DNA of 41,429 bases. Source: a virus. The notes below the pieces were generated by a model, which saw only the letters and a list, made by a program, of their open reading frames with translations, was not told the DNA's origin and searched no databases. The position numbers and the translations under genes were made by a program. Numbering within the stretch: the stretch's first letter is position 1; each line of letters begins with the position of its first letter. Below, piece by piece: positions 19,852-31,672 of this stretch. The DNA lies in the IMG/VR virus record IMGVR_UViG_3300028840_001713, positions 1 to 41,429 of that record. One strand, written 5' to 3'.

Positions 19852-20766
19852 ATGTTTAAGAATAAAGTTGTTTTAATAACAGGTGGCACGGGATCACTTG
19901 GAAAACATTTGACCAATCGTTTACTACAAACAAATCCATCAAAAATTATTATATATTCACGAGATGAACTGAAGCAATCAGAAATGAAAAAGCAATTTCA
20001 AGACGATAGATTAAGATATTTCATAGGTGATATACGCGATAAAAACAGGCTTAATACAGCAATGAAGGGTGTAGACTTCGTAATTCATACAGCAGCATTA
20101 AAACAAGTTGATACACTTGAATACAATCCTTTTGAAGCCGTTAAAACAAATATATTAGGTGCTCAAAATGTTATTGAGTGTTCTATAAACAATAAAGTAA
20201 AAAAAGTAGTGGCACTTAGCACGGATAAAGCTTGCCAACCAATAAATCTATATGGGCATACAAAAGCAGTAAACGATAAACTTTTCCAACATGCTAATGT
20301 ATACGCAGAGAACCATAAAATTATATTAAACGTTGTACGATATGGAAATGTAACAGGTTCGCGTGGTTCTGTTATACCTTTTTTTAAACAGCTTAAAAAA
20401 GAGGGGGCAGAATTTTTACCAGTTACACATCCTGATATGACAAGATTTTGCATTACTTTAGAACAAGCGGTTGAATTAATAATTACGGCTTTTAACGACG
20501 ATGAAGGTGGTAAAATATTTGTGAGTAAATTGCCCAGTTATAGAATACTTGATTTAGTTGAAGCATTTGAAATGGGGGCGGTTATAACCACTATAAGACC
20601 GGGAGAAAAACTTCATGAACAAATGATATCAATATATGATAAGTATGATGAATATAAAGATTATTATATCATTCATAAAAACGGTGAAAAAACAGGTTTA
20701 GATTATAACAGTAAGAACAATAAATTTATGAGTGTTCAAGAACTTAAGGAAATGATAAATGATTGA
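19852..20766 (+). CDS. pseB: UDP-GlcNAc 4,6-dehydratase, PseB/FlaA1 type
   Basis: This 304-residue short-chain dehydrogenase-fold enzyme probably converts UDP-GlcNAc to a 4-keto-6-deoxy sugar, the first step to pseudaminic acid and related sugars. NAD-binding GGTGSLG is at 11-17, the active-site Asp-Lys in STDKACQP at 125-126, and the YxxxK pair Y134/K138 in LYGHTK. It has the short soluble form, without the membrane domain of FlaA1. First gene of the cassette; its 3' end overlaps the synthase gene by 8 bases. The enzyme class is clear; stereochemistry (inverting versus retaining) is inferred. Confidence 0.88.
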   Translation: MFKNKVVLITGGTGSLGKHLTNRLLQTNPSKIIIYSRDELKQSEMKKQFQDDRLRYFIGDIRDKNRLNTAMKGVDFVIHTAALKQVDTLEYNPFEAVKTNILGAQNVIECSINNKVKKVVALSTDKACQPINLYGHTKAVNDKLFQHANVYAENHKIILNVVRYGNVTGSRGSVIPFFKQLKKEGAEFLPVTHPDMTRFCITLEQAVELIITAFNDDEGGKIFVSKLPSYRILDLVEAFEMGAVITTIRPGEKLHEQMISIYDKYDEYKDYYIIHKNGEKTGLDYNSKNNKFMSVQELKEMIND

Positions 20767-21637
20767 ATGGATCGCGGACCCTGCAAGTAATCACAATGGA
20801 TCTCTGGTAATGGCTCAAAGATTAATTCATGCAGCAGCGACCGCAGGGGCAACGGCAATAAAATTTCAGTTCTTTACAGCTAAAACATTAATAGATAGAA
20901 AAGGTTTTGAATATATAGGAAAATTAACACATCAAAGCAAATGGAAAGATGATATATATGAAACGTACCAGAAATATGAAACACCGTTAGAATGGATTCC
21001 AACACTTGCAAGAGATTGCGAAAGGGCAAATATAAAATTTATGGCAACGCCTTACAATAAAGAAGCTGTTGATGCTTTGAATGATTATGTAACAGCCTTT
21101 AAAATTGGAAGCGGTGATATAAACTATTTCCCTTTAATTCAATACGTAGAAAAAACAGGCAAAAAAATGTTATTTGGTTTAGGTGCTGCTACACATAAAG
21201 ATGTTGAAGAACTCTATAGGCATTTAAAAAGCCACGAAAACAAAGTATTCATGCAATGTAACACTAATTACTCTAACGGAAAAAATAATTATAAATATTT
21301 AAATTTAAAATACCTAGATTTATTACCTAGCACATACTCGGAAAAAGGGTTAAGTGATCACACAAAAGATTTGTTTCCGGTACATGTTGCCATTGCATAC
21401 GGCGCTAGATATATTGAAAGACATTTTAAAATAGAAAAAAATAATAGCCCTGATGATCATTTTTCACTAGATCCGCGAGAATGGAAAACAATGATTGTAA
21501 GTGGCAATAAGTGTTTAGAGTCATTAGGCACAGGAAAGAAAATTATTGAACCTAACGAAAAAGAAACACGAATTATCCAGAGAAGAAATCCTTTTAATTG
21601 GTTACGCCCAGATATAACTTATAAGGTTTATGAATGA
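20759..21637 (+). CDS. NeuB-family nonulosonic acid synthase, C-terminally short
   Basis: This 292-residue TIM-barrel enzyme would condense phosphoenolpyruvate with a 6-carbon amino sugar to make a 9-carbon sialic-type acid (PseI/LegI/NeuB; SpsE in Bacillus). Family signatures: IADPASNHNGS at the N-terminus, 'ATAIKFQFF', 'FMATPYN', 'FKIGSGD', 'GLSDHT', and a C-terminal HF..DDHFSLDP metal/PEP region near residues 224-240. The usual C-terminal SAF (antifreeze-like) domain of about 60 residues is absent. Exact product cannot be told from sequence alone. Overlaps both neighbours. Confidence 0.85.
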   Translation: MIEWIADPASNHNGSLVMAQRLIHAAATAGATAIKFQFFTAKTLIDRKGFEYIGKLTHQSKWKDDIYETYQKYETPLEWIPTLARDCERANIKFMATPYNKEAVDALNDYVTAFKIGSGDINYFPLIQYVEKTGKKMLFGLGAATHKDVEELYRHLKSHENKVFMQCNTNYSNGKNNYKYLNLKYLDLLPSTYSEKGLSDHTKDLFPVHVAIAYGARYIERHFKIEKNNSPDDHFSLDPREWKTMIVSGNKCLESLGTGKKIIEPNEKETRIIQRRNPFNWLRPDITYKVYE

Positions 21638-22998
21638 AAATATTATTAATTAATCCAATAACTTATGGATCAATAGATACATTCATAGAAGATTCAAAGA
21701 GAATGAAAATTAACACCGATGAACCGATAGGGTTAATGTACCTAGCCGCGAAATACATAAAAGAAGGGCATGATGCAGAAATATTAGATTTACAAATAGA
21801 AACGCTAAAATATAGAAAGTTTGACAAAGAAATTATTTCAATTATTTTACAAGCTAGATTAAATAAATTTAAACCTGATATGGTAGGAATATCATTTTTA
21901 TATGAACTAAATAAAGATTGTGCATTGTGGGTAGCCCAAAGAGTAAAAGAATATGATAGTAATATAAAAACTATTGCTGGAGGGCTTTATGCTTCTATGA
22001 TGGATGAATTACCATATATTGATGAAATATTAAAAGGTGATCAAACACCAAATTGGATGGAGCTAAAACCTTACAGAGATAATCTGCTAATTGGTGAATA
22101 TGGAATATTAGGGCGCACTGTAATAGATAGGGTATACAAAGAGAATTGCAGAGTAGCAACTATTCAAATAAGTAGGGGATGCCCTTGTAAATGTACTTAT
22201 TGCTCAGGTCATGCAATAACAAAAAGAAAATACACACATAGACCTGTTAATGATATCACAGAAGAAATAAAAGAGCTTAAAGAGAAGTATGATATTGAAG
22301 TATTTATTTTTAATGAAGAAAACAATGGGGTTAATTTAAAGAAAACGAAAGAACTTTACAAGGCTTTAATACCATTAGATATAAAATGGATTTCTAATGC
22401 TGGTTTTTATGTTTCTAATATGGATCAGGAATTTGTGAATTTAGCAATGGATTCAGGTTTATTATATTTTAATTTAGCATTTGAAAGTGGTTCTAAAAGA
22501 TTATTAAGAGAATTAAAGAAAAGTGAAAAAATTGTTGATAATGCAAAACAAATAATGAATTGGATTAGAGAAAAAAATGATTTAATGTATTGTATTGGTT
22601 TTTTTATGTTTGGGTTTGCCAATGAAACTTGGGATGATGTTTATACCAGCATGGAATTTATGAAAGGTTTAGATTTAGATTGGTATCAGGTTAATATGCT
22701 ACAAGTTTTCAAGGGGACGGATTTATATGATGATTATAAAAAAAATGGAAATATAGGTAAAATAAAAGATGCACATTATTTATCTAGTACAGTTGAAAAT
22801 TCAATAATACCAGCAAATGAATTAAATGCATATATCCAACAGAATTTAAACATAGGATTAAATTTTTTAAATAATAGAACATTAAGAAAAGGTAATTTTT
22901 TACAGTGTAGAAGGGATATGCAACATATTTTAAATATTACGAATAATGAACATAGTTATGCAAAAAAAATTATGGAGGTGTTAGGGTGTTCATATTAG
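21634..22998 (+). CDS. B12-binding-type radical SAM enzyme
   Basis: This 454-residue protein has an N-terminal Rossmann-like domain (1-150, ILLINPITYG, 'PIGLMYLAAKYIKEGHDAEILDLQ', 'MVGISFLY', 'TIAGGLYASMMDELPYIDEILKGD') typical of cobalamin-binding radical SAM proteins. The Fe-S motif CPCKCTYC follows (C183, C187, C190). The B12-coordinating DxHxxG is not seen, so cobalamin may be bound without a lower His ligand or not at all. Members tailor sugars, lipids and RNA. In this cassette it could methylate, epimerise or deoxygenate the sugar; the reaction is unknown. Confidence 0.85.
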   Translation: MKILLINPITYGSIDTFIEDSKRMKINTDEPIGLMYLAAKYIKEGHDAEILDLQIETLKYRKFDKEIISIILQARLNKFKPDMVGISFLYELNKDCALWVAQRVKEYDSNIKTIAGGLYASMMDELPYIDEILKGDQTPNWMELKPYRDNLLIGEYGILGRTVIDRVYKENCRVATIQISRGCPCKCTYCSGHAITKRKYTHRPVNDITEEIKELKEKYDIEVFIFNEENNGVNLKKTKELYKALIPLDIKWISNAGFYVSNMDQEFVNLAMDSGLLYFNLAFESGSKRLLRELKKSEKIVDNAKQIMNWIREKNDLMYCIGFFMFGFANETWDDVYTSMEFMKGLDLDWYQVNMLQVFKGTDLYDDYKKNGNIGKIKDAHYLSSTVENSIIPANELNAYIQQNLNIGLNFLNNRTLRKGNFLQCRRDMQHILNITNNEHSYAKKIMEVLGCSY

Positions 22999-23585
22999 GA
23001 ACGACTAATTTCGGACAAAAATATAATGGATCAGAATTAAGTAAAAAAGAATGTTTCAAGATTCTGGAAGAATATAAAAAATTAGGCGGTGTTTATTTAG
23101 ATACTGCTTTTAATTATGGGAATGCTCAGGAGATTATAGGAGAATTTGGAGCGGATCTGTTTAAAATAAATACTAAGTCATGGCACGATGGCGAATTAGA
23201 AAAAAGTTTAGAAATATTAAAAGTAAATAAGATATACAGTTGTATGACAAGAGATTCAACACATTGGATAGGTTATGTTTTAAAGCAACGTGTAAAAAAG
23301 GGTATAATAGAAAAATGGGGATCAAGTATTTATTATCCGCATGAATTAAGAGGGGATGCAAATATAACTTTTATACCGTTTACTAAATACTTTTTAGATT
23401 ATATGCCAGTTATGATGCTTCACGGTGACGTCTGGATAAGATCATATTTTAATTTAGATAGTAATTTAACCAGCGAAGATTTTAAAAAGTATGAAAGAAA
23501 AGATTTGGGGCATGAAGTACATTTTGTTGGCGGTGTAGATAACGTTTTCCAACTAAGGGAAAACATGGAGTTTTTTAATGCTTAA
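22986..23585 (+). CDS. Aldo/keto reductase-like protein, short
   Basis: This 199-residue product starts at GTG 22986 (GGAGG upstream, overlapping the previous gene). N-terminal residues 1-55 carry the aldo/keto reductase signature, LGTTNFGQKY then VYLDTAFNYGNAQEIIG with catalytic Asp39 and Tyr44; K and H equivalents may lie near KINTKSW and MLHGDV. Full AKRs have about 280-330 residues, so part of the barrel is missing, yet the chain is continuous with no frameshift trace. Similar short AKRs occur in bacterial nonulosonate/sps-type clusters to my knowledge. Likely a sugar keto-reductase or a non-catalytic relic. Confidence 0.7.
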   Translation: MFILGTTNFGQKYNGSELSKKECFKILEEYKKLGGVYLDTAFNYGNAQEIIGEFGADLFKINTKSWHDGELEKSLEILKVNKIYSCMTRDSTHWIGYVLKQRVKKGIIEKWGSSIYYPHELRGDANITFIPFTKYFLDYMPVMMLHGDVWIRSYFNLDSNLTSEDFKKYERKDLGHEVHFVGGVDNVFQLRENMEFFNA

Positions 23586-24330
23586 TCTAACAATTATAAT
23601 TTGCACAAAAAATTCAGAAAATAATATAAAAAAAGTTTTAGATAAGTGTAAGAATTATAAAGTAATTTTAGTTGATTGTTCAATAGATGATACTTTAGCA
23701 ATTGCCAGAAAATATAAAAATGTTTATGTTGTAAAAGATAAGGGAAAAGGTTTAGCAGCCGCAAGAAACGCAGGATTAAAACATGTAGTAACAGAGTACG
23801 TTTTATTTTTGGGAAGCGATAATTTAATGACAACAGATTTATACATTTTATCATCACATTTACATAATTATTCATGTGTAAGTTGTATGACAATTCCCAA
23901 TAATGCCTTTAAGAATTATTTAGAAAAGCAAACATATAAACGATGGCAAAAGAAATTTCCCGCAGGAGAACAAAAAATTGTAGGCACTCCGTATATTATG
24001 AGAACGAGCATTTTAAAAGAATATATGTATGATAGTTCTATGTCACATTCAGATGATACAGATTTATTTAAAAGAATGTATGATGATGGGCATAGATTTT
24101 ATAGGTCAAATGTGAAAGTAATAGATTTAACTGTGAATAATTTAAAAGAAATAAAGAGTAGATTTATTCGTTATGGGATAAGTGACAGAGAATTTGCAAA
24201 AAAATATAAAAAAGGCTTTTTAAATTTCTTTTATGCTTTTCGTGCGGAGTGGATAGGATTTGATTTAGTTTATATGCCTTATTATTTATTAGTAGTATTT
24301 TGGAGGTTATATGCCAGAGTCTTTAGTTAA
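23578..24330 (+). CDS. GT2-family glycosyltransferase
   Basis: This 250-residue protein is a GT-A fold enzyme that moves a nucleotide-activated sugar. Motifs: LTIIICTKNSENNI at the N-terminus, VILVDCSIDDT, KGKGLAAARNAGL, and a DxD-like GSDN at 79-82, then a 'SDDTDLFKRMYDDG' acceptor region. The C-terminal 30 residues are hydrophobic (two short segments ending RLYARVFS), suggesting membrane anchoring at the inner leaflet. As the only clear glycosyltransferase in the cassette, it may attach the cassette's sugar to a host glycan or protein. Confidence 0.85.
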   Translation: MLNLTIIICTKNSENNIKKVLDKCKNYKVILVDCSIDDTLAIARKYKNVYVVKDKGKGLAAARNAGLKHVVTEYVLFLGSDNLMTTDLYILSSHLHNYSCVSCMTIPNNAFKNYLEKQTYKRWQKKFPAGEQKIVGTPYIMRTSILKEYMYDSSMSHSDDTDLFKRMYDDGHRFYRSNVKVIDLTVNNLKEIKSRFIRYGISDREFAKKYKKGFLNFFYAFRAEWIGFDLVYMPYYLLVVFWRLYARVFS

Positions 24331-25075
24331 TTGTTTCATACAAGCCCGCACAGGTTCAAAAAGGTTACCAGACAAGGTTTTACTTAATCTCTGCGGAAAA
24401 AGCGCAATACAACGATGTTATGAGCGTGTTATGATGTGCGAGAGAATAAACAATGTAATTGTTATTATTCCAGATAATGAGCCAGAGTTTGCAGAATATT
24501 TATGTGAAGTAGGAATACCATTTTTTAAGGGTGATCCAGATGATTTATTAACAAGATATTGCCAAGCAAGTGAACAATTCCCATGCCAAAATATAGTAAG
24601 GATTACAGCCGATTGCCCGTTAATAGATCCAGCAATAATTGACGATGTGATCAAAACACACTTAGAACATGGTAACGAGTTTACGACTAATGCGTGGTTA
24701 GGATTAGAAACTTATCCCGATGGCATGGATGTATCAGTTATCAGGAAGAAAACACTAGATAAGCTAAATAAAACTATAACCAATGTTATACATAGAGAAC
24801 ATGTTGTAACATACATCATGGAAGATTCAATACCATTTAAAACAGAACACATTGCCAGTGAAATAGATTACAGTGAATATAGATTAACACTAGATCATAT
24901 TGAGGACTATTATGTTTTAAGAATATTAAGCGATATTCTGTTTATAGATTATGTTACATTTTACGGTGAAAACTTAGATAATTTCGGGTTAGATATGATA
25001 ATAGAAAAGCTGGATGAAAACCCATTGTTGAAAAAAATAAACAGTATGCACAAAAGAAACGAGGCTATATTATGA
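24311..25075 (+). CDS. SpsF-like cytidylyltransferase (CMP-sugar synthetase family)
   Basis: This 254-residue nucleotidyltransferase probably activates a nonulosonic-type acid as CMP-sugar. The signature CFIQARTGSKRLPDKVL sits at 8-24 (the R-x(3)-KR-P motif), RITADCPLIDP follows at about 97-107, and HREHVVTYI and LDHIEDYYVLR lie further on, all typical of the SpsF branch related to KdsB/NeuA. Its closest relatives by motif pattern are spore-coat polysaccharide protein F enzymes, often beside NeuB/SpsE and GSA-type aminotransferase genes. Overlaps both neighbours. Confidence 0.87.
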   Translation: MPESLVNCFIQARTGSKRLPDKVLLNLCGKSAIQRCYERVMMCERINNVIVIIPDNEPEFAEYLCEVGIPFFKGDPDDLLTRYCQASEQFPCQNIVRITADCPLIDPAIIDDVIKTHLEHGNEFTTNAWLGLETYPDGMDVSVIRKKTLDKLNKTITNVIHREHVVTYIMEDSIPFKTEHIASEIDYSEYRLTLDHIEDYYVLRILSDILFIDYVTFYGENLDNFGLDMIIEKLDENPLLKKINSMHKRNEAIL

Positions 25076-26208
25076 ATGTATTAGGTTTATATAGTAAGCG
25101 CCCTGAATATTTCTGTAGTGGATTTCCTATATATCAGAAGAAAGCAAAGGGATGTGAAATAACAGACATTTCAAACAAGAAATACATTGATATGTCACAC
25201 ATTGGATTTTCAGCATGTGTATTAGGATACTCAAACCCTATAATTAATGCAATGGCAAAGAAAGCTATAAACGACGGATCTTTTAGCTTACTTAATTCAT
25301 TTAATGATAAAATAAATGCAGATAATTTTATAAAAATTCATAAATGGGCAGATAAAGTGAGATTCACACGATCCGGCGGGGAGGCTTGCCAAGTAGCTGC
25401 TGAAATAGCCAAAGCAAACACTAACAGAAAAGGCATTTTACAATGTGGTTATTCAGGGTGGAAGTTACAAAACGAAAACCATAGAAAATTTACATATAAT
25501 GATATAGAGAGTTTTTATCAAGTTATTAACAAAAATATAGGAATAGTAATTGTCGAGGCTATACGGTATGAAGAACCATCGCCCGAATGGATAGAGCTTC
25601 TAAAAGAGATTAATAAGAAATATATATTGATAATTGATGAAATTACAAGCGGTTTTAGATTTGCCAATGGTGGCATTCATGAAAAATGGGGGCTTCGTCC
25701 TGCAATGGCTGTATTTGGTAAAAGCATGTCAAATGGATTCCCATGTGGTGCTGTATTAATGAGAGGTGATATAGAAGAAGGCAATAAATTTATTTCATCA
25801 ACTTACTGGACTGATAACGTAACGCCTGCGGCTATAACAATGAGCATGATGTTACATAGGATTTATAGACCTCATTATCTGGCAAAGATCGGAAAAGAGA
25901 TTAAAAAAGTTATAGTAGGATGTGCAGATTATTACCAATTGCCGATAAAAATAAATGAAGTAGATCACATTATAAAGTTTACATTTGATCATGAAAAAAC
26001 AAATATACTAGAAACACTATATACGCAATTAATGTTAAAAGAAAAATTTCTTGCAACTAATATAATTTACCCATCATACGCACATAAAATAAAACATCTA
26101 AAAGAATTTGCAAGGGCAATTTATAAAGTGTTTTTTATTATAAAGAAACATATAAACGATCCCGAAAGAATTTTAATAGGGAATGAAAAAAAACATAAAA
26201 TAACTTGA
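25072..26208 (+). CDS. Class III aminotransferase, GSA-aminomutase-like
   Basis: This 378-residue PLP enzyme resembles glutamate-1-semialdehyde aminomutases. Features: MSHIGFSACVLGYSNP at 41-56, RSGGEACQVAAEIAK at 100-114 (phosphate-binding area, usual SGTEA), LIIDEITSGFRF with D189, and the Schiff-base K217 in FGKSMSNGFPCG. It is about 50 residues shorter than HemL and not next to haem genes, so haem synthesis is unlikely. In sps-type clusters such enzymes probably aminate a keto sugar, the step done by DegT-family PseC elsewhere. Last gene of the cassette; a promoter begins in its stop region. Confidence 0.83.
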   Translation: MNVLGLYSKRPEYFCSGFPIYQKKAKGCEITDISNKKYIDMSHIGFSACVLGYSNPIINAMAKKAINDGSFSLLNSFNDKINADNFIKIHKWADKVRFTRSGGEACQVAAEIAKANTNRKGILQCGYSGWKLQNENHRKFTYNDIESFYQVINKNIGIVIVEAIRYEEPSPEWIELLKEINKKYILIIDEITSGFRFANGGIHEKWGLRPAMAVFGKSMSNGFPCGAVLMRGDIEEGNKFISSTYWTDNVTPAAITMSMMLHRIYRPHYLAKIGKEIKKVIVGCADYYQLPIKINEVDHIIKFTFDHEKTNILETLYTQLMLKEKFLATNIIYPSYAHKIKHLKEFARAIYKVFFIIKKHINDPERILIGNEKKHKIT

Positions 26209-26860: not shown

Positions 26861-28049
26861 TGCTTTCAAGTCATTAAAAGAAAGCACAAAGAGATTAAAT
26901 ATAGTTTATGGCGGTGCTGGTAGTGGTAAGAGTTACTACTTAGCACAAATGATTATATTGAAGCTCATTGAAACACAAAGAAACTTTTTAGTCATTAGGA
27001 AAGTAGGCAATACATTGAGAGATAGTGTATGGAGCTTATTTTTATCGGTTATAAGTGATAATAATTTATCACAAATATTTCAAGTCAATAAGTCAGAGTT
27101 TACTATTACCAATAAGATAGAAGGTAATCAAATTATATGCAAAGGGTTAGATGATCCGGAAAAGATTAAATCTATTACAGTTAAAAAAGGGCAGCTAACT
27201 GATATTTGGATAGAAGAAGCAACAGAATTAAACGAAGACGATTTAATGCAGCTTAATTTAAGGTTAAGGGGAGAGAACGAATACCAAAAACAGATTTGGT
27301 TAAGTTTCAACCCTATAAGTAATCTACATTGGATTAAGAAAAAATACTTTGATAATCCAGATAATAACACCTTAATACTTAAAACAACTTATAAAGATAA
27401 TGCTTTTTTAGATGAGGACTACAAGAGAGAGTTAGAGAGTTTAAAATATAAAGATAAGGTTTACTATGATATTTACGTACTAGGAAATTGGGGTGTCATA
27501 GGAAATCTTGTTTTTAACAACTGGGAAGTAAAAGACTTAGATGATATAAGAGAGCAGTTTAATTCTTATTATAACGGGCTGGATTTTGGGTTTACAAATG
27601 ATCCTACAGCCATTGTAAAACTCGCAAGGAAAGATTGGAATATATATATATTAGAAGAACATTATGAAAAGGGTTTAGATAATAACCAGATCGCAAAGGT
27701 TTTTAAAGATAAGTTTGAGGGGTATGTTTATTGCGATAGCGCAGAGCCTAAAAGTATTAGGGAGCTTAAACAGTACAATATAGCAGCCAAAGCCACGATA
27801 AAAGGCAAGGATTCTGTTAAGCACGGCATACAGTGGATAAGGCAGCATAAAATAATAATAGATAAACGGTGTACTAATTTCATTAATGAGATAAGTACAT
27901 ATAAATATAGAGAGGATAAAGACGGCAACGTTTTAAATGAACCGTTGGACATGAATAATCATTTAATGGATGCCATGAGGTACGCATTAGAGAACTTAAT
28001 GCGGATGTATAGAAAAACCAGTTACAGTGCTGGGCAATTGGGGCTTTAA
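26838..28049 (+). CDS. terL: Terminase large subunit
   Basis: This 403-residue packaging motor ATPase and nuclease has Walker A GGAGSGKS (25-32), Walker B TDIWIEEATEL with Glu126/Glu127, and a coupling motif with LSFNP. The RNase H-like nuclease acids appear in GLDFGFTNDPTAIVK, VYCDSAEP and HLMDAMRYAL. The sequence type resembles PBSX/SPP1-like terminases, which generally package by headful, consistent with a circularly permuted genome (inference). Overlaps the small-subunit gene; the portal starts in its stop codon (TAATG). Confidence 0.93.
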   Translation: MCTIKINDAFKSLKESTKRLNIVYGGAGSGKSYYLAQMIILKLIETQRNFLVIRKVGNTLRDSVWSLFLSVISDNNLSQIFQVNKSEFTITNKIEGNQIICKGLDDPEKIKSITVKKGQLTDIWIEEATELNEDDLMQLNLRLRGENEYQKQIWLSFNPISNLHWIKKKYFDNPDNNTLILKTTYKDNAFLDEDYKRELESLKYKDKVYYDIYVLGNWGVIGNLVFNNWEVKDLDDIREQFNSYYNGLDFGFTNDPTAIVKLARKDWNIYILEEHYEKGLDNNQIAKVFKDKFEGYVYCDSAEPKSIRELKQYNIAAKATIKGKDSVKHGIQWIRQHKIIIDKRCTNFINEISTYKYREDKDGNVLNEPLDMNNHLMDAMRYALENLMRMYRKTSYSAGQLGL

Positions 28050-29503
28050 TGGAAGGTGATGTAAAAATAACAACTAAGATTTATGAATACCCACGTGTAG
28101 AAGATTTTACAAGTTTGAACGAAAAAGAACTTGAAACACTCATTGAAGATAACCGTGAGTTTTGGAATAAATACGCAGAGAATGAGCAATACTACATAGG
28201 TGCTAATGTTGCTATTGCGAGTAAAAGGGAAGTTGACAAAGATAATCCCGATTCACGGGTTGCCGTGCCTTATGCGAGAACTATGACTCAAATTGTTAAG
28301 GGTTATATGTATAAAGCAGGGTTAATAACTTATGATAGTGATAACGAGCAATATATGCAAGTCCTACAAGAGATATTTGACCGGAATGATGAAACGCTTA
28401 AAACAAGTGAGCTTGGAGAGAGTCAAAGCAAATACGGTTTAGGAGTTGAACTACTCTATATAGATGATAAAGCCGAATTAAGATTTACTAACGTTAACCC
28501 CAAAGAATGTATATTCCTTTTCAATATGGAAATCGAGCCTAAATTGTCAGGAGCTTTAAGATACTATGTTATTGATGAAGATAAAGACAAATTAAACTCT
28601 AAAACATATAAATTAGAAGTATACTACTTAGATCGTATAGAGATATACACACTAAAAGAAGATTCATTTAATAAGTTTTCTGTTGTAAGCAAGGATGATC
28701 AATACCCGAATGTATTTAAGGAAATTCCTTTTGTTATCTATAAGAACAATCAGGAATACCACGCGGACTATGAGCCTGTTAAGCCACTTGTAGATGCTTA
28801 CGATATATTAGCCAGTGACAGCACAAATGAGTTAAACCGTTTTGCAAGTGCTTATCTTATTCTTAAAGACTATGTATTTTCAAACCCAGATGATGATAAC
28901 ATGAAAACAAGGGAATTAGAAAAGCTTAAATCAAGACGTGTACTAGAGTTTTTAGACGGTCAAGGCGGCGCTGAGTTCTTAACCAAAGATATACCAAGTG
29001 AGTTCTTTGAAGCTGTTAAAGGTACATTAAGAGAGGATATTGAATATCATTCGCATATACCAGACTTTAGAAGCAAGAACTTTTCTAATGCCTCAGGTGT
29101 TAGTATGATGTGGGCTTTGTTTGACTTTGAGAATTTTTGTAGTGATAAGGAAACGTTATTCTCTAAAGGGCTACAACATAGAATAGACCTAATAAATATA
29201 TATCTAGGCATAAGAAATATACAAGCTGAAAAGGTAAATATTAGGTTCAAACGAAACACGCCTGTAAACTTAACCGAACTAATTGATAATGCAGTTAAAT
29301 TAAAAAACGGCGGGATATTATCAGATGAAGATATATTAAAAACACTACCAGAAGATTTAGTCGATAATGTTGACGACGCTTTAGAGAGGTTAAAGGCTCA
29401 GAGAGATGAAAACATGCAGATGTTTGATATAGAAGGGGGATCTAATGGAGATCAAGGATTTAATTCAAGAGATCAAGAGGCACAGCCAAATAACGGAAAC
29501 TAA
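28049..29503 (+). CDS. Portal protein, SPP1 gp6-like
   Basis: This 484-residue protein forms the dodecameric DNA entry channel. Features typical of the SPP1-type portal family: an early 'NREFWNKYAENEQYYIG' helix, 'DNPDSRVAVPYARTMTQ' near 65-85, 'RRVLEFLDGQGGAEFLTKD' and 'DFRSKNFSNASGVSMMWALF' in the stem/clip region, and a charged helical C-terminus. Follows the large terminase and precedes the minor head protein, the canonical packaging order. Confidence 0.88.
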   Translation: MEGDVKITTKIYEYPRVEDFTSLNEKELETLIEDNREFWNKYAENEQYYIGANVAIASKREVDKDNPDSRVAVPYARTMTQIVKGYMYKAGLITYDSDNEQYMQVLQEIFDRNDETLKTSELGESQSKYGLGVELLYIDDKAELRFTNVNPKECIFLFNMEIEPKLSGALRYYVIDEDKDKLNSKTYKLEVYYLDRIEIYTLKEDSFNKFSVVSKDDQYPNVFKEIPFVIYKNNQEYHADYEPVKPLVDAYDILASDSTNELNRFASAYLILKDYVFSNPDDDNMKTRELEKLKSRRVLEFLDGQGGAEFLTKDIPSEFFEAVKGTLREDIEYHSHIPDFRSKNFSNASGVSMMWALFDFENFCSDKETLFSKGLQHRIDLINIYLGIRNIQAEKVNIRFKRNTPVNLTELIDNAVKLKNGGILSDEDILKTLPEDLVDNVDDALERLKAQRDENMQMFDIEGGSNGDQGFNSRDQEAQPNNGN

Positions 29504-29612
29504 TATCATTGATATAAAAAAAATCAATGGCAAGTTGGTTTTTGAGGTGAGCAATGGGGCAGATAGCAGAAAACCAAAAAATAGCATTCAATCAAACAGA
29601 GGGGATGCTTAA
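29445..29612 (+). CDS. Possible small protein overlapping portal and minor head genes
   Basis: From ATG 29445 (GGGGGA just upstream) to TAA 29610-29612, 55 residues in a different frame from both neighbours. The product starts MEIKDLIQEIKRHSQ and has a short beta stretch (KINGKLVFEVSNG). It bridges the 50-base gap between portal stop and next start, overlapping each by about 58 bases. Small genes at this spot occur in other phages, so it is plausible, but coding evidence is limited to the RBS and the fit. Confidence 0.4.
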   Translation: MEIKDLIQEIKRHSQITETNIIDIKKINGKLVFEVSNGADSRKPKNSIQSNRGDA

Positions 29613-31275
29613 TATATATGAGAAGCGGTTAATATCTGCTTATCGTGGATCTTTGAAACAAATAAGAAATGATATCATGAAGCTAAATGAAAAGGTTACA
29701 TGGTCATTCAGTGAGCTAAGGAAATATAACAGGCTGGAGAAACTACAGAAGCAAGTTGCTAATGAGCTTGTGAAGTTAGGTAGATTAACAGGTGTCGAGT
29801 TGGCAAAGGTTAATACTAACATTGTGGAGAATACTTACAATAGATCATGGTTTGGGTATGAAAAGGAAATTAAAACAAGTTTGGCATTTGGTAAAATAAA
29901 TCCTGATCTTGTTAAAGGGATAGTAACAGAGCCTTATCCTAACGTTAAACTAAAAGATTTAATCAAAAATGTTACGCAACAGCAAGTTAATAGAATAGTG
30001 TTTGATATAGGGCAAAGTCTAGCATTGGGAGAAGGTGCTGCAAAAGCGGCACGTAGATTGCGAAATAGTTTAAATATAGGCTTTAATCAGTCAATGCGTA
30101 TAGCACGTACGGAAGGATTAAGGGCAAGTAGTAAGGCACAATTAGTCAGCACAGAAAGAAGTCAAGATTTAGGGATAGAAATAACAAAACAATGGCATAC
30201 AAATTTAGATGGGCGTGAAAGATCGAGTCACAGAAATATAAACGAACAACTAGCGGATAAAAAGGGGTTATTCCATATAGGCACAGCAACAGCAGAAGCC
30301 CCGAGATTATTCGGGATAGCAAAAGAGGATATAAATTGCAGATGTTATTATACAGAAGAAATAGATGATTTACCTGAAAACATAGAAAAACGAGTAACAC
30401 CTAAAAGCATAGATAAAAGCCGACAAATGACATTTGATGACTTTCAAGAGGAGAAAGGGATTAAAAAGAATAAGGAAGTGCCAAAGGCTAAAGAGCCAAA
30501 AGAGCCAAGGTTTAAGCCTGCAAGAACAGTAGATGAAGCTGTAAAATTTGCTAAAAATAATAATATAGCAAAACAAATAGATTACAATGGTATTAGTTTA
30601 GAACATATAAATGCAATTAATAAAACACTTATAAGGCTAAAAGAAAAATATAAACAACCTTTTCCATATATACAACTAAATACAAAAATGGGCGAAGGAG
30701 CCACGGCGGGGGCAAATGCGGTGCAACTGAAATTAAATAAAAGAGCTTTTAGTAAAAATTCTATACGTGAGATGTACCATGATACACATACAGGGTTTAA
30801 AGAAAATACAAAAAATAGTTTAAGATTAATAAATGAAAATGATAAAAGAAAATTAGTTAGTGAGCAAGAAGCAAAAAGGTATAAAGAAACATTAACAGAA
30901 ACTATAAAATTTAAAAGATCTAATACAGCTTTTAAAGGAGAAGAAATAAACACTATCATTACGCATGAATTTGGGCATACTTTAGCAGATATTAAACTAG
31001 GACTCATAACAAAAAACCCTGTAAACAAGTTGTTAAGAAGCAAGGGAGGTTCTAATTATATTAAAAAATCAGATGAATTAATAGAAAGATTAGATAGTCT
31101 TTTTGATAAATATGTAACAAAAAAAACAGATGGATATATTTATGATGTATCAGTATATGCCACAGAAAATAAAGATGAATTTTTAGCAGAGAATTTTGTA
31201 CTTTGGGATAAAAACCCAAGTTTAGTAAAAAAAGATATATCAAAATTTTTCAAGGATTTAGTGGAGTTATTATGA
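29554..31275 (+). CDS. Minor head protein (Mu F / SPP1 gp7-like) fused to a zincin-like metallopeptidase domain
   Basis: This 573-residue protein's N-terminal part (about 1-265) matches phage head morphogenesis proteins: a helical region, then 'RIARTEGLRASSKAQ', 'KQWHTNLDGRERSSHRNINEQ' and the Cys-containing DINCRCYYTEE. A Lys/Pro linker (about 290-325) leads to an unrelated C-terminal domain (330-573) with the zinc site ITHEFGHTLAD (His471, Glu472, His475). A downstream ENKDEFLAENF with Glu542/Glu546 could give the third ligand. This resembles polymorphic-toxin or lethal-factor-like zincins appended to minor head proteins. It may be delivered into the host with DNA. Confidence 0.87.
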   Translation: MGQIAENQKIAFNQTEGMLNIYEKRLISAYRGSLKQIRNDIMKLNEKVTWSFSELRKYNRLEKLQKQVANELVKLGRLTGVELAKVNTNIVENTYNRSWFGYEKEIKTSLAFGKINPDLVKGIVTEPYPNVKLKDLIKNVTQQQVNRIVFDIGQSLALGEGAAKAARRLRNSLNIGFNQSMRIARTEGLRASSKAQLVSTERSQDLGIEITKQWHTNLDGRERSSHRNINEQLADKKGLFHIGTATAEAPRLFGIAKEDINCRCYYTEEIDDLPENIEKRVTPKSIDKSRQMTFDDFQEEKGIKKNKEVPKAKEPKEPRFKPARTVDEAVKFAKNNNIAKQIDYNGISLEHINAINKTLIRLKEKYKQPFPYIQLNTKMGEGATAGANAVQLKLNKRAFSKNSIREMYHDTHTGFKENTKNSLRLINENDKRKLVSEQEAKRYKETLTETIKFKRSNTAFKGEEINTIITHEFGHTLADIKLGLITKNPVNKLLRSKGGSNYIKKSDELIERLDSLFDKYVTKKTDGYIYDVSVYATENKDEFLAENFVLWDKNPSLVKKDISKFFKDLVELL

Positions 31276-31448
31276 CACCTAATCAATGTTATAAATGTAA
31301 AAATTATATGGGTATGAATACTTGTTTAGCATTTAAAAAAATACCTAAAAAAATAATAACAGGAGAGTTTAATCATAGTAACCCTTATCCAAACGCTGAA
31401 AAACCAACTGATAACGGAATAAGGTTTGAGAAAATAAAGGGGAAATAA
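31272..31448 (+). CDS. Small Cys-containing protein downstream of minor head gene
   Basis: 58 residues, ATG 31272 (in ATGA overlap with the previous stop) to TAA 31446-31448. The N-terminus CYKCKNYMGMNTCLAF contains three cysteines in CxxC..C spacing, suggesting a zinc knuckle, then a basic helix and a Pro-containing tail. Such a short 'CxxC' protein sits between head morphogenesis and scaffold genes in several phages to my knowledge. Role unknown. Confidence 0.65.
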   Translation: MTPNQCYKCKNYMGMNTCLAFKKIPKKIITGEFNHSNPYPNAEKPTDNGIRFEKIKGK

Positions 31449-31672
31449 TGAACGTATTATTTAAACGAGCTGTAACACAGCTTTTACAAGTGATAAATCA
31501 TGCAAGTGAAGATCAAATAATAGAGCTTTATACAGATGTTAAAGCTTATTATGACAATATAAAAAAGGAGTCAGAGGATGGCAGATCAACAGCAGCAGGT
31601 CAACGATCAACAGGATCAGGGGCAAGCAATACAAGAAAACGAAGCACAGGAAACACAAGAGCAAGAAAATAA
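31448..31672 (+). CDS. Small hypothetical protein overlapping scaffold gene
   Basis: This 74-residue product starts in the TAATG overlap with the previous stop (AAGGGGAAA as RBS). Residues 1-44 are a helical domain (RAVTQLLQVINHASEDQIIELYTDVKAYY). The last 30 residues are read in another frame over the Gln-rich start of the scaffold gene and are Ser/Gly/Arg-rich, so only the N-terminal part looks constrained. A compact helical domain before the scaffold fits an accessory head assembly protein. Confidence 0.55.
   Translation: MNVLFKRAVTQLLQVINHASEDQIIELYTDVKAYYDNIKKESEDGRSTAAGQRSTGSGASNTRKRSTGNTRARK

Follow-up and report, generated by a model that had tools for sequence, protein, structure and literature searches.

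A phage minor head protein with a predicted lethal-factor-like zincin tail, and an adjoining small gene family found beside several effector classes

The locus

The DNA analyzed here, referred to as the window, is the complete 41,429-nucleotide virus record IMGVR_UViG_3300028840_001713 (positions 1 to 41,429). It encodes a MuF-type minor head protein whose C-terminal part is predicted to be a zinc metalloprotease domain of the zincin type, followed by an overlapping open reading frame (ORF) for a 58-residue protein. The features of the locus are as follows.

28049-29503, + strand: portal gene, directly upstream of the MuF gene (phrog_64, E 8.1e-102)
29554-31275, + strand: ORF of 573 amino acids for a minor head protein of the MuF type that ends in a zincin tail (Phage_Mu_F; phrog_115)
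29554-30453, + strand: residues 1-300, the MuF head part, in which the PF04233 core spans residues 151-265 (30004-30348)
30418-30522, + strand: charged linker, residues 289-323, in which the likeness to sister phages stops
30443-31447, + strand: putative ~1-kb cassette of zincin tail and small gene that the sister phages lack; approximate limits
30523-31272, + strand: predicted zincin domain, residues 324-573, with a lethal factor profile match and a VIA-align matched range starting at residue 324
30964-30978, + strand: HEFGH, residues 471-475, comprising two predicted zinc-binding histidines and the predicted catalytic glutamate; invariant in 39 domains
31156-31191, + strand: Y535, E542 (predicted third zinc ligand) and E546, conserved in 39 domains
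31272-31448, + strand: 58-residue CxxC..C..H protein of a PHROG 33375-like family, its start overlapping the MuF stop (ATGA)
31448-31672, + strand: small ORF after the cassette; in sister phages a relative comes immediately after the short MuF gene

The head part of the protein matched Phage_Mu_F (PF04233) over residues 151-265 (E 4.4e-12, 47.2 bits against a cut-off of 29.6), and the 573-residue protein matched the minor head protein family phrog_115 (E 3.8e-40). PHROG also listed a hit to a DNA-ejection pilot protein (E 0.0033), which is not taken as support.

Conservation and fold of the zincin domain

Relatives of the zincin domain were collected from other phage contigs, mainly with motif patterns and additionally by family searches, and an iterated profile search within this set converged on one family. 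Alignment of 39 domains revealed that H471, E472, H475, E542 and E546 (window residue numbers) are invariant, and that Y535 and A545 are conserved in >90%. An HExxH motif within the last 220 residues is rare in control ORFs of related contigs (4/452 and 7/422 in two control sets), and this rarity, together with the invariance in the 39 domains, argues that HEFGH is not a chance occurrence. The segment YATENKDEFLAENF begins at Y535 and includes E542 and E546, giving a Tyr-x6-Glu-x3-Glu spacing that we take to correspond to the active site of anthrax lethal factor. The preliminary description of this locus had pointed to a zincin-like domain fused to the MuF head protein, to HEFGH at residues 471-475, and to a lethal-factor-like third-ligand pattern in this segment, and all three are borne out by PF04233, the conservation, and the profile and model comparisons below.

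Searched against the Protein Data Bank (PDB), the 39-domain profile matched the catalytic domain of anthrax lethal factor with an E-value of 1.9e-8, and Pfam ATLF was matched by 11 of the 39 related domains at E-values up to 1. The window domain itself was not listed under ATLF in the Pfam search, falling below the ATLF cut-off, and is for that reason classed as lethal-factor-like rather than as a member of the family. Structure prediction and comparison with lethal factor, the check named in the preliminary description, returned a zincin fold. AlphaFold run on the 39-domain alignment gave a model with a predicted local distance difference test score (pLDDT) of 73.8 and a predicted template modeling score (pTM) of 0.69, while prediction from the single sequence (pLDDT 39.8) was of no use. 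The model aligned to lethal factor in VIA-align with Z 11.6 and a root-mean-square deviation (rmsd) of 3.2 over 154 residues, with about 15-19% identity in the structural alignments. The next matches, MtfA-like hydrolase (Peptidase_M90) and Pro-Pro endopeptidases, have related zincin folds at Z about 9, but their structural match is weaker than that of lethal factor and the Peptidase_M90 match is below the Pfam cut-off. Together, conservation, PDB profile and model make a solid case for a predicted zincin with a lethal-factor-like active site, a reading that implies no particular substrate. Lethal factor (ATLF, M34) shares with the window domain the HExxH and Tyr-x6-Glu-x3-Glu patterns as well as the profile and model matches; it differs in being a secreted toxin with its own delivery partner, whereas the window domain sits on a phage head carrier.

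Comparison with sister phages

Two sister contigs (L004 and L005) encode a head protein with 68% identity to residues 1-301 of the window protein. There, however, the head protein ends at 307 residues and is followed directly by a relative of the window gene starting at 31448. Similarity between window and sister DNA is lost near 30442 and returns near 31493, so that the window holds an extra unit of ~1 kb consisting of the zincin tail and the ORF at 31272-31448. This comparison supports the view that tail and small gene form an exchangeable cassette, and is compatible with either gain or loss. Since both sister phages have a head module that lacks the domain, an essential role of the domain in assembly is argued against. 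A further difference is a DNA methyltransferase-like gene that the window lacks; in the sister contigs it lies between the end of the terminase and the portal gene (L004:479-1270 and L005:592-1383).

The small gene and its neighbors

The 58-residue product, which the preliminary description had overlooked, combines a CxxC..C..H motif with an IP..I..G...H motif. The window copy has no PHROG match, and PHROG 33375 was matched by 65 of 74 members of the small family. With the small protein as query, six loci besides the window were found, each with an HExxH protein directly upstream. The same small protein directly follows zincin-tailed genes both where the carrier is MuF-like (L014/L016) and where it has no recognized MuF domain (L015/L018), and the window's pair also occurs in the isolated Flavobacterium phage lotta8-1, as gp028 (MuF-zincin) and gp029 (small protein). 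A tblastn search with the zincin domain alone returned zero matches in phage and plasmid records, and two scans of genome contigs returned no relatives.

A wider scan with a small-protein pattern, blind to the neighborhood, yielded a first sample of at least 80 loci, all with the family motif. Among the matches listed, HExxH lies in the last 220 residues of the upstream protein in 50 of the 77 loci with an adjacent upstream ORF, compared with 4 of the 452 remaining same-strand ORFs of these contigs (Fisher p 2e-45), and the small gene starts between -30 and +40 nucleotides from the upstream stop in 71/76, 27 of them by an ATGA overlap. A second pattern, taken from a different part of the small protein, added 74 further distinct members, whose upstream tails comprise 37 zincins and, assigned by the HxHP..S..D motif only, 12 JAMM-like domains among 71 (control 7/422, p 6e-29). 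Both p values overstate the significance, since some entries are near-duplicates or lie on related contigs; the size of the effect is large in each sample.

The remaining tails belong to other enzyme classes. Among the listed matches of the first sample, Pfam identified ADP-ribosyltransferases (ARTs) in the non-zincin tails (PF03496 in 6/20 and PF01129 in 3/20), and inspection by eye of the remainder of the second sample found ~11 ART-like tails and one zeta-toxin-like kinase. Since tails of ART-, JAMM- and kinase-like type also occur next to the small gene, the position behaves like a slot for effectors. The carrier proteins are MuF in 32 of 57 cases, with two portal and two Phage_min_cap2 proteins. 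A non-phage case is an Oscillatoria plasmid, on which the small gene comes after a large exoprotein with an end that is ART-like by eye, a reading for which no PDB match was found. The small gene stands without an adjacent effector in the replication region of Brevibacillus phage Jenst (L029) and on two plasmids (L151, L153), and other MuF-zincins (L007, L008, L011, L017) are followed by different small ORFs.

Partial Mantel tests over 26 loci found that small-protein distances correlate with effector-domain distances given the carrier (r 0.40, p 2e-4), and that the correlation with carrier distances is not significant given the domain (r 0.01). Divergence of the small protein thus tracks the effector domain and not the carrier. 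Adjacent genes that are swapped jointly would give the same result, and the tests accordingly show co-inheritance of a module rather than binding.

Several individual loci deserve mention. The tail upstream of the small gene at L158 resembles a zeta-toxin-type kinase (GSGKSS motif) and is a possible injected effector; at L092 the small gene follows a 1380-residue protein with an internal zincin and an ART-like end; and the zincin-type tail at L193, with YATTNADEYIAEAY, lacks HExxH in the stretch checked and is possibly an inactive copy. At L018 and L020-L023 the small C3H domain forms the N-terminal part of a longer phage protein with an end that looks prohead protease-like by eye, and at L015 an extension of the small protein ends in an HNH-like stretch. 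One carrier protein of the A6 alignment matches the anti-CBASS protein Acb1 (E 4e-38), which would fit counter-defense cargo, and a few A6 carriers match HINT/intein domains, which would fit self-processing.

Interpretation

SPP1 gp7 is the prototype of this type of head protein and is taken by the portal into the procapsid interior (PMC6316719). Delivery of toxins fused to gp7-like proteins has already been proposed (PMC6316719, PMC5576092). The latter paper (Jamet 2017) reports metallopeptidase tails in 20% of MuF toxins and a following small ORF in 89.4%. Characterized MuF polymorphic toxins include Apk2 and Bxa, the latter an antibacterial MuF-ADP-ribosyltransferase neutralized by neighboring proteins (PMC11699363). 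The window shares their layout, with PF04233 in a gene directly after the portal, a variable C-terminal domain predicted to be a toxin-type enzyme, and a small ORF next. It differs in that one recognizable small family recurs across effector classes, which the searched text of PMC5576092 does not describe. The MuF-metallopeptidase fusion itself is therefore already known, a precedent absent from the preliminary description, and the window protein is an added member. Within open PMC papers, neither the PHROG number nor lethal factor in combination with minor capsid protein gave a literature match, and both the zincin and 58-residue gene as a ~1-kb cassette and the common small partner across effector classes are apparently undescribed.

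Fold, active site, carrier type, cassette nature and the linkage of small gene and effector, as read from sequence and model, make it moderately probable that the window protein belongs with the MuF polymorphic toxins as a phage-delivered effector that has a dedicated small partner. From these we infer the virion location, delivery, proteolysis, host target and small-protein action of the following scheme. Residues 1-300, the MuF part, would enter the capsid interior via the portal, in analogy to SPP1 gp7, joined through a flexible linker to the putative zinc metalloprotease domain (H471, E472, H475, E542, E546 and Y535), and the domain is probably carried to the next bacterium. Upon DNA ejection it would reach the cytoplasm of the new host and cleave one or more host proteins to the benefit of the phage, by counter-defense or takeover. 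In the producing cell, the 58-residue C3H protein would act on the effector domain as its dedicated partner, keeping it inactive or export-competent during assembly; more generally, the small protein may keep effectors in check. The suggestion in the preliminary description that the domain may be an injected effector is partly supported, by the zincin fold, the MuF fusion and the exchangeable cassette, and delivery of this kind is the subject of the published proposals cited above.

Several results weigh against this reading. The window domain alone passed no curated family cut-off (best Pfam match Peptidase_M90, E 0.014-0.017), and a sequence search with the window tail alone found no solved structure. 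Foldseek by itself gave no significant match in the PDB and a marginal one among viral models, so that the evidence for the fold comes from VIA-align and the PDB profile match. Linked inheritance alone would account for the Mantel result, and a specific immunity protein would not usually come from a single small family that adjoins unrelated folds. Lastly, a search of the window for integrases (PF00589, PF00239) found no match in a contig that may be incomplete, whereas MuF toxins have been reported only from temperate phages. The phages designated LMO8, from the source study of lotta8-1, were described as virulent (PMC7077304). The lack of an integrase match and the occurrence of the pair in lotta8-1 suggest that the role may lie in host takeover or counter-defense rather than in competition between lysogens.

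The recurrence of one family beside unrelated folds favors a general inhibitor or loading chaperone over a classical cognate immunity protein. We regard it as an evenly balanced proposition that the PHROG 33375 family is a general partner, in which a single small zinc-binding fold would sequester or load virion-fused zincin, ART, JAMM and kinase effectors, acting as a pan-effector antitoxin or packaging chaperone.

That the small gene instead encodes a classical specific immunity protein, guarding the producer or lysogen against this zincin only, appears unlikely. The gene is directly downstream with an overlapping start and travels with the domain, and PMC5576092 reads small ORFs after MuF toxins as immunity genes. 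Adjacency and co-inheritance were thus found, but specificity to one toxin fold was not: tails adjoining the family can also be ART-, JAMM- or kinase-like, the poorly resolved small-protein tree shows no more than weak clustering by effector class, and some other MuF-zincins have different small ORFs downstream. As an assignment, a zincin-specific immunity protein was rejected because the same small family accompanies other effector folds.

A further alternative, which we consider quite improbable, is a virion-processing protease that would work while the head is assembled or cut its own chain, for instance to release the tail from MuF. Processing of multidomain phage polypeptides has been proposed for zincin-like domains (PMC5512222), and residues 33-476 align with phrog_595, a family that bears the name head maturation protease; however, the sister phages have the same head module without the domain, and in other phages non-protease tails fill the slot beside the small gene. 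The polyvalent-protein zincins of PMC5512222 likewise contain HExxH, belong to proteins presumed to be delivered alongside phage or plasmid DNA and were compared there to lethal factor, but these proteins are long and multidomain with the zincin interpreted as a processing enzyme, whereas the window has a single terminal domain on a small head protein.

That the small gene is an ordinary head-module gene following any MuF gene, its effector link being positional only, is already disfavored and very improbable: although carriers are mostly MuF, portal or Phage_min_cap2 proteins, the small gene and domain are missing together in the sister phages, the small protein tracks the domain and not the carrier, the gene also follows the plasmid exoprotein with an ART-like end, and no clear short MuF gene without a tail precedes it among the listed first-sample matches or in the second sample, despite the 952 short MuF proteins against 191 MuF toxins reported in PMC5576092.

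Enzymes that phages presumably inject together with their DNA are hard to spot because the domains vary, and one small gene family marks them here: with the small protein as the only query, virion proteins bearing effector tails from several enzyme classes were recovered in each of two samples. If the family is indeed a general partner of such effectors, PHROG 33375 would be a marker gene for injected effectors with unknown domains. If the small protein binds effectors, it would offer a handle on how protease, ADP-ribosyltransferase or kinase activities are carried safely in the capsid and set free in the next host, and would make it possible to test many anonymous head proteins of phages as injected effectors.

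Elsewhere in the window, between the replication and packaging genes, positions 19852-26208 hold a gene run for which similar DNA in phage records covers a 10% stretch only. The run resembles a pathway for synthesis and transfer of nonulosonic (sialic-type) acid, with NDP-sugar epimerase/dehydratase-like, NeuB (PF03102, E 9e-57), radical SAM-like, glycosyltransferase-like, CMP-sugar synthetase-like and class III aminotransferase-like genes.
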